From Prochlorococcus sp. AG-363-N20 (lineage in GTDB: Bacteria; Cyanobacteriota; Cyanobacteriia; PCC-6307; Cyanobiaceae): a stretch of DNA of 53,162 nucleotides. Of this stretch, positions 1,420 through 46,328 are shown one piece after another. Where the stretch lies: positions 1-53,162 of the forward strand of contig QCFX01000010.1 in the NCBI GenBank assembly GCA_003280105.1. Direction: 5' to 3'. How positions within the stretch are numbered: the stretch's first letter is position 1; each line of letters starts with the position of its first letter. The translations under genes and the position numbers were made by a program. The notes beneath the pieces were generated by a model. That model made no database searches, was not told where the DNA came from, and saw only the letters and a list, made by a program, of their open reading frames with translations.

Positions 1420-1514
1420 AGCAACTAGATGCCTATCCAATCCCAACTCATTTTAGAAGTATTGCTTCTTTCTTTTCTGCAATCAGGCAGAATTGATTTG
1501 CTAATTTCTTTTAA

Positions 1515-2183
1515 ATGCTCATAAGCGTCCTTACAGGTATTGCTGCAGGAGCTCTCCATGTAGTTGGTGGTGCCGATCACTTGATTGCAATGATGCCTAC
1601 TGCAATCAACCAGCCCAAAATGGCTTTACGCAATGGTTTGGCATGGGGGTTAGGTCACTCGGCAGGTGTTTTGACCCTTTCTACAATTGCAATTTTGATT
1701 AAAGATTTTGCACATATTCAACGTATGTCATCGTTGGCAGAGTTTTCAGTGGGACTAGCTCTAGTCCTTGTAGGCGCTTTGGCAATAAAAACAGCTTTGG
1801 GATTAGATATTCATACTCATGAGCACAGACATGGCGATGGTCACGATCACAAACATATTCACTTGCACTTACGAGGAAAACAAATACATAACCGCCATTC
1901 TCATACCTCCACAGGTTTAGGAGTTCTTCATGGACTAGCAGGTGCAAGCCACCTTTTGGCGATTATTCCTGCTTTGGCGCTGCCCCCTATTGGAGCAGTT
2001 GCATACATGGGGGCTTACTTCTTTGGATCCATAGCAGCTATGGGGCTTGTATTGTGTCTTATTTCAATTGCCACTTCGCGCGTAGGGAAAAAGGGTTTGC
2101 CATTAATGGTGGGACTTACGGGTGGGCTTTCAATTGCTATCGGCCTTTTTTGGCTTCACAAAAACACTCTTCAAATTATTTAG
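1515..2183 (+). CDS. sodT: Putative nickel transporter of the Ni-SOD locus (SodT-like)
   Basis: A 222-residue membrane protein with about six hydrophobic segments and a histidine-rich loop at roughly residues 102-131 that alternates His with Asp and Gly. The first helix carries a GGADHL motif and a later helix repeats GLAGASHL, a pattern of the NicO/HupE/UreJ group of Ni/Co carriers. It converges on sodX and sodN, which fits nickel supply for the Ni-SOD; the name sodT follows the marine cyanobacterial locus. Function is inferred from family features and context. The metal could be cobalt in principle, but the neighbours argue for nickel. Confidence 0.8.
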   Translation: MLISVLTGIAAGALHVVGGADHLIAMMPTAINQPKMALRNGLAWGLGHSAGVLTLSTIAILIKDFAHIQRMSSLAEFSVGLALVLVGALAIKTALGLDIHTHEHRHGDGHDHKHIHLHLRGKQIHNRHSHTSTGLGVLHGLAGASHLLAIIPALALPPIGAVAYMGAYFFGSIAAMGLVLCLISIATSRVGKKGLPLMVGLTGGLSIAIGLFWLHKNTLQII

Positions 2184-2202
2184 CGATTTTAAGAAGTGCA
2201 TT

Positions 2203-2538
2203 TTAATTGTTGGGAATTATCTGCTCCACTATTCCACAAAGTTGATTCTTATTGACCAGGCCAAATTGGCGACTATCAATGCTTGAAACTTCATTGTCTC
2301 CTCTGAGTTCAAGGCCTACTGGAGAAGATCTTTTTACTCTTTTGATAATTAAAACTTCTGGATCAATTGGATTTTTTACCACTACTATGCTTCCTTTCTT
2401 AGGGAAGCAATTTCCTTGATTGACCGGCTTGTATATAACGAAATCCCCATTCAGCAAAGTAGGGCGCATAGAGTCTCCAGAGACACGACAGTATTTCCGA
2501 ACACCCAAAATAAGAAGAAGAAAGGAGTGAATATTCAC
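2203..2538 (-). CDS. sodX: Nickel-type superoxide dismutase maturation protease (S24/S26-like)
   Basis: SodX is a small signal-peptidase-like serine protease that removes the propeptide of Ni-SOD to expose the N-terminal histidine. The sequence shows the nucleophile motif SGDSMRPTL, the following GDFVIYKP strand, the general-base region VLIIKRVKR and the closing RGDN box. The frame is open upstream to a TTG at 2625, which would overlap sodN by 68 bases. I place the start at GTG 2538, giving about 111 residues, because sodN ends at 2558. That GTG lies inside a 24-bp perfect palindrome, so the true start is uncertain. It is probably cotranscribed with sodN. Confidence 0.85.
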   Translation of the reverse strand: MNIHSFLLLILGVRKYCRVSGDSMRPTLLNGDFVIYKPVNQGNCFPKKGSIVVVKNPIDPEVLIIKRVKRSSPVGLELRGDNEVSSIDSRQFGLVNKNQLCGIVEQIIPNN

Positions 2539-2544
2539 TCCTTT
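2521..2544 (-). promoter_or_regulatory. Perfect 24-bp palindrome between sodN and sodX
   Basis: Half-site AAAGGAGTGAAT is followed directly by its exact reverse complement. It begins 14 bases after the sodN stop codon and covers the Shine-Dalgarno-like AAAGGAG and the proposed GTG start of sodX. In the sodN-sodX transcript it would form a hairpin that pairs the ribosome-binding site. The RNA just after it is U-rich (CUUCUUCUUAUUUUG) but lacks a clean U tract. It could be a weak terminator, a translational brake or a protein-binding site. Confidence 0.6.
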
Positions 2545-2557
2545 AAATATTTTGTCT

Positions 2558-3031
2558 TTAGCTTGCTGTGACCCATGAGTCTGATCGACCTTTGGATTTC
2601 CAAAACATGTGGTGTATTTTTTCAACAGACTCCATTAAATCTTCTGCTTTTTTTTGGTCAATATTTACTTTGCATGCACTGCAAAGTTTGGCGGCTTTCC
2701 AAAATGTTTCATGAAGATCGGGGAATGAAGCTAAGTGCTCCGGCTTGAAATAATCAGTCCAAAGGATGAGAAGCTCTGTCTTTGTTTCCTTGGCTTGCTC
2801 TTCTTTAATAGCTACGAAGCGTGAGAAGGTGTTGTTATACGTAGCCCAAGCTGCTGGATCACTTCCTTGAGGTGGTTCCAAGGCAATTAATTTCTTTGTC
2901 ATAGAAAGTACAGCTTCTGCTGCAACACGAGCTGAAGCTGGGTCATAAACACCGCAAGGTCCGTCGCAATGAGCCTTGACCGTTGCAGTTGGCAGGCTAC
3001 TGAGGATTTTGGAAAGTGCCGAGCGCAACAT
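2558..3031 (-). CDS. sodN: Nickel superoxide dismutase precursor
   Basis: A 157-residue precursor of the small homohexameric Ni-SOD that converts superoxide to oxygen and peroxide. A 20-residue propeptide (ending TVKA) is followed by the nickel hook HCDGPCGVYDP. After cleavage His21 becomes the N-terminus, and Cys22, Cys26 and its backbone bind nickel. The mature chain is four-helical with the usual conserved SDPAAWATYNNTFSRFVA-type segment. The start is ATG 3031. SodX just downstream is the processing protease, and the sodT-like gene converges on the pair. A 15-bp palindrome lies 23-37 bases upstream of the start. Use of nickel rather than iron is typical of marine picocyanobacteria. Confidence 0.97.
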   Translation of the reverse strand: MLRSALSKILSSLPTATVKAHCDGPCGVYDPASARVAAEAVLSMTKKLIALEPPQGSDPAAWATYNNTFSRFVAIKEEQAKETKTELLILWTDYFKPEHLASFPDLHETFWKAAKLCSACKVNIDQKKAEDLMESVEKIHHMFWKSKGRSDSWVTAS

Positions 3032-3053
3032 CTGACAAAAATTTTAAAACCTA

Positions 3054-3068
3054 TTAGTAGCCTACTAA
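3054..3068. promoter_or_regulatory. Palindrome upstream of sodN
   Basis: TTAGTAG and CTACTAA arms flank a single C, 23-37 bases before the sodN ATG. The position suits an operator or the base of a short leader hairpin. It does not match an NtcA-type GTA-N8-TAC site. No transcription start is known, so the role is inferred from symmetry and position only. Confidence 0.4.
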
Positions 3069-3116
3069 AGGAAGTTATTAAATGGGTCTCAAATAAGTAG
3101 ACAAATTTGCACTCGT

Positions 3117-3722
3117 TCAATTGATATCCAAAAGTTCCACTTCAAAAATCAAGGTTGAATTAGGAGGAATCAGCCCGCCACCGATATTTCTACTTCCATA
3201 ACCAAGTTCTGGTGGGATGATCAATTTTCTTTTTCCACCCACTTTCATACCTGCGACTCCTTCGTCCCAACCTTTAATTACTTGCCCAGCCCCTAAGGCG
3301 AAACTGAATGGGCCCCTCCCGTAACTGCTGTCAAACTCTTTCCCGTTTTCAAGAGTGCCACTGTAATTTACGGAAACTCTTTTCCCTGCAGTTGCTTCTG
3401 CACCTGTGCCTTCAACAAGGTCAGTAATGCTCAAGCCACTTGCTGTGATCTTGGGACTATTCATTTCCAGGGGACCTCCAAGGGGTGAATTCTTTGATGC
3501 AGGCTTGTCTCTTGCCATTGCAAAGAGTATTGGATTGGGGTCGTCCGGGTCTAGTTCAAAAAGATTATTTGATCTTTGAACGGTTCCTGTTGTTGCTACT
3601 TCAGAGCCAGTAAAGGAGTTCCCCTTCTCAGCTAGCACCTGAGAAGGGGAAATGATTTGGCTTAGGAAAGCAACCATAAGGCAGCTGAGAAAGACCGAAA
3701 AACTAATTAGGACTTCACGCAC
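3117..3722 (-). CDS. FKBP-type peptidyl-prolyl cis-trans isomerase, exported or membrane-anchored
   Basis: The 201-residue protein begins with a hydrophobic stretch (about residues 5-30, a signal sequence or anchor), continues with a low-complexity linker of about 65 residues, and ends with a full FKBP domain from about residue 95. FKBP landmarks are visible: [18 protein letters not shown], the [12 protein letters not shown] active-site strand, PPELGYG and a final FEVELLDI. The domain catalyses proline isomerisation in folding; the leader places it in the periplasm or thylakoid lumen. The start is a GTG. It lies downstream of, and divergent from, lnt, and just upstream of sodN on the same strand. 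Confidence 0.9.
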
Positions 3723-3878
3723 GAGGCTTTTTGCTATTTCAAAATTATTCTTACAGGATATGTCTGCTTATAAAGCTTTTTTAGATTCCTTTTTACTTAG
3801 CAATAGTGGATGATTCATACAGAAAACTCACTTTTTCAAAAATTTTTCCATGAATACAGTTTTCTGTAGTGCTTGTTG

Positions 3879-16389: not shown

Positions 16390-16414
16390 ATTTGTAAAGG
16401 AGTTCAACCTATTC

Positions 16415-16448
16415 AATAAAAAAAGGGCTTATTAGCCCTTTTTTTATT
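16415..16448. terminator. Bidirectional Rho-independent terminator
   Basis: A perfect 15-bp stem (arms 16415-16429 and 16434-16448) with a four-base loop, GGGCT at the top and seven A/T pairs at the base. It gives a U run on both strands. It lies between convergent genes, and the TAA of the minus-strand gene (16444-16446) is part of the stem. Confidence 0.93.
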
Positions 16449-16986
16449 GAGTAGATTCTGCAATTGCATTAATACTCAGTGCAATTGCAAGTTTTTGATC
16501 TTTGTCATAACCCCATTTCGAAAGAAAAGCTTCATCTTCTCTTTCCTCTCCTAATTCTTTAGTTGCTTTAAGAAGAGCATCTAACCTTTTTTTTACTTCA
16601 TGCGTGTCTAACACTCTCAGGAGATCTTGACATCTTGAGGTTATTCTTTTTGAGGCTGACTCCCTTTCAAGGTCTCCTTTTCGCGCATGATGAATCGCCA
16701 TTGCAGTACTCATTGCAAGGTTGCGAGCCGCTAGATCTACAACTTCTTCGCCACCAGCTCTAAGTTGTACTACAAGAGGATCAGGGAGTCGATCCATTAG
16801 AGGACAATCACTTGACAAGCTAACAACAAAAAAACCACGTATTCCGTCTCTTGTTGTCAAGAGTTCTCCAACTTTGTCTGCAAGAACTTCGTCACTCAGT
16901 TCCCCTTTTTCCCAAGAATGGCACCAAAGCATTGCTATTTGCAGCGTATTTTCAAAAGTTTGATTCTTGTTGGTCATGGCTTTCAT
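16444..16986 (-). CDS. Conserved protein of unknown function
   Basis: I do not recognise a named family. The 180-residue product is soluble and mostly helical by composition, with no signal or membrane segment. It contains an acidic stretch (ELGEEREDEAFLSKWGYD near the C-terminus) and an internal GIRGFFVVSLSSDCPLMDRLPDPLVVQL region that looks like a conserved core. The ATG at 16986 (with a second at 16977) lies 41 bases from the divergent era start. The clean frame and the shared terminator support a real gene. Confidence 0.75.
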   Translation of the reverse strand: MKAMTNKNQTFENTLQIAMLWCHSWEKGELSDEVLADKVGELLTTRDGIRGFFVVSLSSDCPLMDRLPDPLVVQLRAGGEEVVDLAARNLAMSTAMAIHHARKGDLERESASKRITSRCQDLLRVLDTHEVKKRLDALLKATKELGEEREDEAFLSKWGYDKDQKLAIALSINAIAESTQ

Positions 16987-17972: not shown

Positions 17973-18115
17973 TGGGATTTTTAACTAGAACTTTCCTGGC
18001 CCCTCGATTTTGCGCCCGCTTCTTTTATCGTTGAATTGCATAGGAAGAATTACTGTCAAGTAGTTAACTCTTGTGGAATTTCCCACAAGAGTTTGATCAA
18101 GCGATTTGCAAAATT

Positions 18116-35424: not shown

Positions 35425-35698
35425 TTGTCTAAAGGTTCAAACTTTATTTGAAAGTTTTCGTTTAACTGGGACACTTCTCTCTTATCAAGATTAAATATCA
35501 GGACTGTCTTTTCTCGCCGGATATAGATTGAATTTTCTATGGATATACTTGAAAGAAAACCCTTAACTGGAAAACACCGCAGGAAGGAAACACCGCAAGA
35601 GATGCATAGCTCGGAAATATGGGTATATTTTAGGCGCTCAACTATAATGTCTCTATTGACATGAGAGTGATTGCAATCACTCTCATGCCAACAATATT
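35425..35698. other. Non-coding spacer between lexA and tRNA-Ala
   Basis: About 270 bases without a supported frame. It holds a direct repeat (AAACACCGCARGA at 35572-35584 and 35588-35600), a TATAAT at 35643-35648 that is a likely -10 box for the tRNA gene, and a 28-bp perfect palindrome just before the tRNA. No clear -35 box is seen. It marks the border between core sequence and the AT-rich accessory block. Confidence 0.7.
35660..35687. promoter_or_regulatory. Perfect 28-bp palindrome in the tRNA-Ala leader
   Basis: The half-site CATGAGAGTGATTG is followed by its exact reverse complement. It lies between the TATAAT at 35643-35648 and the tRNA 5' end at 35699. If transcription starts near 35655 it is in the pre-tRNA leader and would fold as a stable hairpin. 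It could also be a dyad for a protein. There is no U run after it, so a simple terminator is unlikely. Confidence 0.6.
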
Positions 35699-38293: not shown

Positions 38294-38327
38294 CTACTAG
38301 AAACTATAGAACTATAGTTTCTAGTAG
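38294..38327. repeat. 34-bp inverted repeat (16-bp arms, two-base centre)
   Basis: CTACTAGAAACTATAG and its exact reverse complement are separated by AA. It lies 37 bases before the FkbM gene and downstream of the secreted-protein gene. It could end the upstream transcript or affect FkbM expression, but no T run follows on either strand. A remnant of a small mobile element is another option. Confidence 0.6.
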
Positions 38328-45661: not shown

Positions 45662-45847
45662 ATGACTAAGCAAATCACATCAAAGGAGGGCAGTAATTAT
45701 GCCAGTATTTTAGAGGCATATGGACGGGGCGAACTCTGGAATTCAGCATCTTCGTTGAGTGGGATTTCACAATTGAAAGATTCTTCATGCTTCCCAATGA
45801 TTCAGAGAAGCTCTATGCACTTCCCTTTTATATTAAAAGATTGGTAG
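45662..45847 (+). CDS. Doubtful small open reading frame
   Basis: A 61-residue frame from ATG 45662 with no clear ribosome-binding site, no recognisable domain and a Ser-rich composition. The stop codon lies in the loop of a 13-bp hairpin (45827-45860). It may be a decayed or spurious gene. I list it only because it is the longest frame in this gap. Confidence 0.25.
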   Translation: MTKQITSKEGSNYASILEAYGRGELWNSASSLSGISQLKDSSCFPMIQRSSMHFPFILKDW

Positions 45848-45860
45848 CTTTTAATATAAA
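45827..45860. terminator. AT-rich 13-bp hairpin, possible terminator
   Basis: TTTATATTAAAAG (45827-45839) pairs perfectly with 45848-45860 across an eight-base loop. It lies between a doubtful plus-strand frame and a convergent small minus-strand gene. There is no GC top to the stem and no long T run, so it is a weak candidate. Confidence 0.4.
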
Positions 45861-46283: not shown

Positions 46284-46328
46284 AGAAGAAGCACTGACTT
46301 TAAAAAATCTAAAGTCAGTGCTTCTTCT
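46284..46328 (-). terminator. Strong hairpin terminator
   Basis: A perfect 19-bp stem (AGAAGAAGCACTGACTTTA with its complement) and a seven-base loop. On the minus strand the stem is followed by TTTTT, so it fits the end of the 46355-46675 gene 27 bases upstream of it. On the plus strand the following sequence is less U-rich. Confidence 0.85.

Follow-up and report, generated by a model that had tools for sequence, protein, structure and literature searches.

Recurrent RNA hairpins at the sodN-sodX junction of marine picocyanobacteria and their possible role in keeping SodX scarce

RNA hairpins at the junction of sodN and sodX, which encode nickel superoxide dismutase (NiSOD) and its maturation protease, look selected in several groups of marine picocyanobacteria, as judged from the sequences of the loci compared here. 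In Prochlorococcus sp. AG-363-N20, whose contig of 53,162 nucleotides is called the window, they comprise a perfect palindrome (H1) and a second stem-loop (H2). A tentative reading, given somewhat less than an even chance, is that the NiSOD maturation protease of marine picocyanobacteria has no conserved standard start codon, that ribosomes finishing sodN may enter sodX at AUU, AUC, or AUA (in the group labelled HL) or at a CUG lying over the stop codon (in the Synechococcus group), and that the first ~28 codons, with a terminator-shaped H1 and a covarying H2, may double as an RNA control element for setting the SodN:SodX ratio. Such ratio control written into coding sequence would provide test cases in organisms without Rho, as well as test cases for clade-wide non-AUG initiation.

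The NiSOD of MIT9313 and its peptidase were reportedly described by Eitinger in 2004. According to the accessible part of PMC3441193, Prochlorococcus has sodN as its sole sod gene; that of PMC8346466 describes the activation of NiSOD by SodX via cleavage of the preprotein. In the open-licence literature, searched by title or abstract start, no description of these hairpins or of missing sodX starts was found; the accessible portion of PMC7368042 mentioned neither sodN nor superoxide, and that of PMC5009743 did not mention Prochlorococcus.

Comparison set and structure scans

The loci gathered, including the window, numbered 202: 31 from pattern and sodX searches, 80 named ones by SodN, 30 by the sodN family, and 60 by place, the sodX matches, the sodN-family matches, and the 60 loci by place being taken from among the matches listed. 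Among these matches, genus g9 had far lower SodN scores (E about 1e-45 to 1e-47) than other family members listed. The motif rule was passed by 131 distinct junctions, 53 loci were exact repeats over 150 nt, and 18 were set aside, including eight distinct loci that were restored with hand-set anchors, seven duplicates of those eight, and three (L012, L020, and L022, from other cyanobacterial families and obtained via sodX matches) that were excluded, as no sodX adjoined sodN. The final set consisted of 139 distinct sodN-sodX junctions in four groups, LLother (65, including the window), YRQ (23), SynFCG (15), and HL (36). These labels were made from motif and gap; 9 of the 15 SynFCG loci belonged to named Synechococcus, and 9 of the 36 HL loci to named Prochlorococcus. 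HL and YRQ each formed one side of a branch with a support of 100 in the sodN DNA tree, SynFCG had a support of 43, and LLother was the remainder. The closest sodN DNA to that of the window (L039) had an identity of 80%. One locus (L165) had an odd gap of 76 nt, and another (L015) a 9-nt aligner gap inside H2. The gap of one YRQ locus (L077) was 118 nt, compared with 91 in the other 22, owing to 27 nt inserted in frame into the hydrophobic segment, on the upstream side of H2.

Structure was scanned in 40-nt windows against dinucleotide shuffles and in 14-codon windows against 40 codon-preserving resamplings, and both scans singled out the same two places, H1 and H2. A hairpin was counted when the best codon-preserving window fell below a z of -2, with eight windows tried at H2 and six at H1 and at each control block, and with a codon pool taken from sodN and sodX of the same locus.

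The junction in the window

The features of the locus are listed in Table 1. When folded, the 131 nt of RNA at the junction gave three stem-loops, the first in the terminal part of sodN and the next two being H1 and H2, with a z of -3.3 against dinucleotide shuffles (1 of 200 shuffles was equally low). A His-rich membrane-like ORF (1515-2183) is convergent with sodX, and 19 bases separate the 3' ends. No Pfam or NCBIfam model matched this ORF at E 0.001; it is possibly the nickel transporter to which the name sodT is given in the accessible part of PMC10119275.

Table 1. Features of the sodN-sodX locus in the Prochlorococcus sp. AG-363-N20 window
Feature	Position	Strand	Remark
sodN, nickel superoxide dismutase	2558..3031	-	TIGR02753, 233 bits; PF09055
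sodX, NiSOD maturation protease (S26 type)	2203..2538	-	TIGR02754, 88.3 bits (cut-off 63.25); PF10502; drawn from GTG, actual start may be further upstream
sodN stop codon	2560-2558	-	
H1, perfect palindrome / RNA stem-loop	2521..2544	-	in frame in sodX codons KGVNIHSF; then CTTCTTCTTATTTT
H2, second stem-loop	2471..2506	-	sodX codons immediately upstream of GxSM motif
GTG, candidate sodX start of the initial annotation	2536..2538	-	codon -23 relative to GxSM; valine codon by comparison
In-frame ATA, candidate non-canonical sodX start	2548..2550	-	downstream of sodN stop; inferred from sequence
In-frame TTG within sodN	2623..2625	-	sole ATG/GTG/TTG upstream of GTG in open frame (ORF 2203..2625)
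ATG of GxSM motif (codon 0)	2467..2469	-	anchor for locus comparison

The 24-bp perfect palindrome noticed earlier at 2521-2544 (AAAGGAGTGAATATTCACTCCTTT) was confirmed, with two fully (100%) complementary arms of 12 bases each (AAAGGAGTGAAT and ATTCACTCCTTT) and a spacer of 0. It starts 13 bases downstream of the sodN stop codon on the minus strand and folds as RNA into a 10-bp stem with an AUAU loop (-13.3 kcal/mol). When codons were resampled with the encoded amino acids kept, only 2 of 4000 sequences folded as well (mean -4.7 kcal/mol), and the stability of H1 in the window thus exceeds the demand of its codons; in the case of H2, 38 of 4000 resamplings were as stable. Perfect hairpins with arms of at least 12 and a loop of at most 9 were abundant across the 53-kb window, with seven seen compared with 0.125 expected (mean of eight Markov-1 random windows) and five of the seven wholly or mostly between ORFs of at least 100 aa; therefore, the codon-preserving test is the better measure.

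The palindrome occurred once in its own genome (79% complete) in a search allowing up to 3 mismatches, and in 1 of 400 family genomes, its own, at up to 2 mismatches. It thus does not behave as a repeated or mobile element, with no second copy in the genome and none in any of the other 399 family genomes covered, and an Rfam search of 1500-3800 yielded nothing above the gathering score and two matches far below it. Because the palindrome is private to one genome, its function is argued below from its class. The initial annotation also offered a protein dyad. A protein-binding site, for example that of a nickel- or iron-responsive repressor, would account for the perfect two-fold symmetry and the zero spacer. 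This reading was not sustained and is considered extremely unlikely, as the palindrome is a single copy private to this genome and lies within coding sequence downstream of sodN, whereas the hairpins that recur in relatives keep complementarity while their letters change.

Directly 3' of H1 in the window, five T are found among the first eight bases (CTTCTTCT), interrupted by C, with no run longer than two in the first nine. A consensus terminator scan called the palindrome on both strands, with six sites in 2.3 kb compared with 2.6 (sd 1.7) expected. By sequence alone, H1 would satisfy the numeric cut-offs given in the accessible part of PMC13289151 (four or more U among 8 and an MFE under -10), which were applied there around measured 3' ends.

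Coding nature of the purine run and GTG

According to the initial annotation, AAAGGAG was the ribosome-binding site and GTG the start of sodX, and the palindrome masked both. This assignment did not hold in the comparison, as the purine run overlaps GTG without spacing and the triplets behave as Lys-Gly-Val codons. Shine-Dalgarno sequences usually lie about 5-9 nt before the start codon. Among 48 LLother loci in register (the window included; gaps of 88, 91, 94, or 97 nt), codon -23 was GTG in only two (the window and L013), GTT in L035, and GTA in L154 and L030. Lys-Gly occupied codons -25/-24 in 7 of the 48, with GTG, GTG, AGC, GCA, GTT, CTT, and AAT as the next codons. From the sodN stop to codon -23, 62 of 64 LLother loci had no stop in the sodX frame, compared with 46 and 39 of 64 for the other two frames. 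As the sodX frame is mostly open here, the purine run appears to be part of the coding sequence, and reading seems to begin upstream of GTG. The pN/pS of the short zone was 0.33 in YRQ, 0.49 for codons -28 to -24 in HL, and 0.91 in LLother, a group in which both pS and pN approach saturation and this value by itself does not support coding. By this comparison, the arms of H1 behave as N-terminal codons of sodX. A masking hairpin, one that sequesters AAAGGAG and GTG and blocks initiation until it is opened, would fit the presence of the purine run and GTG within the 5' arm and the pairing of GGAGTG with CACTCC in both the window and L013, but it is highly improbable given the zero spacing, the turnover of GTG and of the codons after Lys-Gly, and the open frame upstream.

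Start codons of sodX in relatives

In the window, the candidate starts of sodX would be TTG 2625, ATA 2550, GTG 2538, and later codons. The serine preceding the ATG of GxSM is presumably the S26 nucleophile of SodX, in which case this ATG cannot start an active protease. In 51 of the 139 loci (34 HL, 16 LLother, and 1 SynFCG), no ATG, GTG, or TTG was found before GxSM, and in 58 the open frame had none ahead of codon -15. Eight loci without a standard start (L014, L021, L029, L112, L139, L141, L142, and L158) belong to genomes listed as a single contig, the contigs measuring 1.6-2.7 Mb; therefore, the absent starts are not just a matter of fragmentary assemblies.

The frame of sodX relative to sodN was +1 in 53, +2 in 10, and 0 in 2 of the LLother loci, and +2 in 27, 0 in 5, and +1 in 4 of the HL loci. 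In HL, 31 of 36 loci have a stop in the sodX frame no more than 60 nt ahead of the sodN stop, and two loci (L131 and L139) carry one extra base directly after the sodN stop compared with L118. From these upstream stops, the occurrence of all three frame relations, and the extra base, it follows that entry into sodX in HL should lie after that base. All 36 HL loci have AUU, AUC, or AUA at codons -27 to -25 (codon -25 is ATT in 31 and ATC in 3), which is a candidate start, with the qualification that Ile codons are common in such sequence and that the loci are related. A CTG overlapping the sodN TGA was found in 9 of the 15 SynFCG loci, comprising all SynFCG loci in that frame, and in L142 and L015. 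The nine SynFCG loci and L015 also carry an in-frame ATG, GTG, or TTG upstream of codon -15; hence, only L142 has CTG without a standard rival. No YRQ locus (0/23) lacked a standard candidate, an ATG or GTG lying 23 nt before the sodN stop among the loci listed. A shared non-canonical start position was sought in LLother and none was found, and L004 had neither a standard start in the open frame nor ATT, ATC, ATA, or CTG in the interval scanned. Candidate start codons are thus available close to the stop of sodN in both HL and SynFCG, and none was seen in L004. A trade-off of the start codon against a hairpin, or of H1 against H2, was looked for in independent pairs on the tree and gave no signal (median p of 1 and 0.625, respectively), although the 6 and 10 starred pairs are a small basis for a verdict.

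A different account of the missing starts is that SodX is made as an extension of SodN by frameshifting or read-through, which the hairpins would stimulate. The prevalence of the +1 relation in LLother (53/65), which is kept across gaps of 76, 88, 91, 94, 97, 100, and 115 nt, and the absence of any candidate start from L004 agree with such an extension. It is nevertheless improbable, as all three frame relations occur in both LLother and HL, L131 and L139 differ from L118 by one base just past the sodN stop, the HL sodX frame is stopped before the end of sodN in most loci, and H2 lies about 50 nt beyond the sodN stop. Reading that begins at weak or non-standard codons near the end of sodN is preferred here.

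Hairpins at the H1 place in relatives

A hairpin at the place of H1 was present in 15/15 SynFCG, 25/65 LLother, 5/23 YRQ, and 0/36 HL loci. Six control blocks deeper in sodX passed the same threshold in 10, 10, 5, 3, 2, and 4 of the 65 LLother loci, so that the 38% for H1 compared with 3-15% in the controls represents an excess and not a rule; one YRQ control block in sodX reached 11/23. When sodN itself served as the control, the stretch about 71 codons before its stop had a mean z of -1.40 in LLother, with 45% of the 65 loci below -1.5, and elsewhere in sodN this proportion was 2-32%, compared with at most 37% for H1 and at most 49% for H2. Since the most structured part of sodN reaches a similar level, H1 in LLother is not outstanding, whereas H1 in SynFCG and H2 in YRQ (100%) stand out against the sodN controls. 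Structured peaks were also seen near codon -20 of sodN, with 52% of YRQ and 47% of HL loci below a z of -1.5. In LLother, 46 of the 65 loci had H1 or H2, 12 (including the window) had both, and 19 had neither. The five nearest relatives of the window by tree path (L033, L032, L161, L036, and L030) did not pass the threshold for H1, L036 being borderline at a z of -2.0.

In SynFCG, Ala codons such as GCAGCAGCAGG pair with Leu codons such as CTGCTGCTG to form the stem of H1, and a run of 6-7 T follows straight after it in 15/15 loci, compared with 0/963 control stretches. The run is spelled (CTT or TTT)-TTT-TGT, with TTT at codon -14 and TGT at codon -13 in all 15 loci, and it uses codons that are rare in these genes (TTT accounts for 12% of Phe and TGT for 19% of Cys codons over sodN plus the part of sodX that begins at codon 0). 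The predicted SynFCG H1 is thus an intrinsic terminator in shape that lies within coding sequence; the tails of most H1 in LLother are T-poor. In SynFCG, pS was about halved in codons -23 to -14 (0.365 compared with 0.68-0.70 elsewhere), but the same codons of HL, a hydrophobic zone without the hairpin, had a pS of 0.087, so that a low pS alone proves little. The register and letters of H1 differ by lineage, and excess stability is what was seen of it.

Covariation in H2

H2 was found in 23/23 YRQ, 33/65 LLother, 12/36 HL, and 1/15 SynFCG loci. Its pairs follow p+q = -39 and enclose a loop of four bases with the consensus TGTC, and in 54 loci below 92% SodN identity (53 LLother and 1 YRQ) this register paired 72% of cells, compared with 24-50% in neighbouring registers. 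In the pair counter, 70.6% of cells were paired (61.6 in shuffles), 77 cells were changed on both sides (42.1 in shuffles), and the covariation was 0.358 (0.235 in shuffles, and no more than 0.130 when the register was slid), with 0 of 500 shuffles as high for each of the three measures. There was no excess in the number of pairs with both-side change (7 compared with 8.1; 480/500 as high) or in further pair types (33 compared with 30.9; 112/500 as high). Relatedness and coding limit the shuffle control, but the slid registers and codon-preserving resampling point the same way. H2 shows compensatory changes in a fixed register. The check proposed in the initial annotation, conserved pairing with compensatory changes in relatives, thus gave a positive answer for H2 in three of five measures, and for H1 yielded only the excess stability. 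G-U pairs are frequent among the paired cells, as expected from folding of the mRNA strand, although coding could yield the same. The H2 zone of YRQ had a pS of 0.146, compared with 0.24-0.33 in its surroundings, and H2 of the window is not followed by a U run. Neither H2 nor the missing start codons in relatives appeared in the initial annotation.

A competing view is that Lys-Gly and Ser-Phe codons happen to pair, with the hairpin being a by-product of chance and coding that is idle in the window genome. That the palindrome is private to one genome and missing in the nearest relatives, that many changes are needed on the tree (26 for H1 and 31 for H2, where 67 of the 136 inner branches have poor support), and that one sodN stretch in LLother is as structured as H1 all speak for such a by-product. 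It is nonetheless judged rather unlikely in view of the rarity of equally stable codon-preserving samples (2/4000), the excess over the sodX control blocks, and the strong H1 in every SynFCG locus.

A possible device that keeps SodX scarce

The preferred reading, to which close to an even chance is given, is that H1 and H2 in the first sodX codons, together with weak starts, keep SodX low relative to SodN. The palindrome would be an mRNA stem-loop in the first translated codons of sodX, and H1 and H2 would be layers of one device, it being assumed that SodN is the more abundant product and that both genes share an mRNA. In a first step, transcript would be lost at the junction: in SynFCG by partial intrinsic termination at the hairpin and U run, and elsewhere by a stem-loop that forms the protected 3' end of sodN when the sodX part is degraded. 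In a second step, which the start codons described above partly bear out, few ribosomes, probably those that have just finished sodN, would enter sodX in many lineages, its start close to the end of sodN being weak or non-standard. H1 of the window would be a lineage-private form of this recurring element and, because its U tract is interrupted, would act as a leaky terminator or 3' barrier rather than as a mask of a ribosome-binding site. Against the device stand the absence of H1 in HL (0/36), in 18 of 23 YRQ loci, and in the five nearest relatives of the window. The earlier proposal that the hairpin sets the SodN/SodX ratio is therefore retained for the class, the terminator features of SynFCG H1 fitting partial termination, and is dropped for masking of the GTG and its ribosome-binding site; its authors held that relatives without the dyad would speak against it, and H1 was indeed absent from the nearest relatives and HL and present in other groups.

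Several known systems resemble parts of this device. The REP type of malE-malF consists of 3'-protective stem-loops between operon genes, and the likeness lies in a stem-loop just past the upstream gene that would shield it from 3' exonucleases; the junction hairpin differs in being single copy, lineage-specific in sequence, and within the downstream frame. The AUU starts of infC and pcnB are known non-AUG starts, and sodX is similar in having an AUU-class codon near its expected start and a low expected expression, but here the candidate start would belong to the maturation protease of a nickel enzyme and recur across a whole clade. Intra-operonic intrinsic terminators and attenuators share the stem and U run between two operon genes, SynFCG having the full layout, whereas here the element lies inside the coding sequence for a hydrophobic segment of the downstream gene, and the U tract is interrupted in the window. 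According to the accessible part of PMC13289151, cyanobacteria are without Rho, U-tract ends with upstream structure occur in Synechococcus elongatus, and 22% of its transcription units end like canonical intrinsic terminators. Termination-reinitiation coupling, as covered in the accessible parts of PMC6728339 and PMC12548453, is similar in that the reading of sodX in HL and SynFCG seems to begin at or near the sodN stop, with a CTGA overlap in nine SynFCG loci, L142, and L015; unlike in that coupling, the usual ATGA or TGATG was not seen at these stops, and CUG or AUU/AUC/AUA is available instead. The sodN-sodX junction of Streptomyces contains a 19-nt stretch with complementarity to a small RNA that arises by processing of the sodF 3'UTR, as stated in the accessible part of PMC3919588; the gene pair is the same, but the junction sequence is conserved there, whereas pairing recurs here instead.

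Other hairpins in the window

The FKBP gene (3117-3722, minus strand) contains a perfect 13-bp hairpin with a loop of 7 at 3619-3651, in the 5' part of its coding sequence after a signal-peptide-like segment. As a conserved feature this hairpin was rejected, with no conserved structure there in 22 distinct relatives. Six more perfect hairpins with arms of 11-19 were located at 16413-16450, 18066-18093, 35660-35687, 38294-38327, 45827-45860, and 46284-46328, and all but one of these lie entirely or largely between ORFs of at least 100 aa. The hairpin at 35660-35687 has no spacer and forms a 28-bp palindrome flanked by convergent ORFs.
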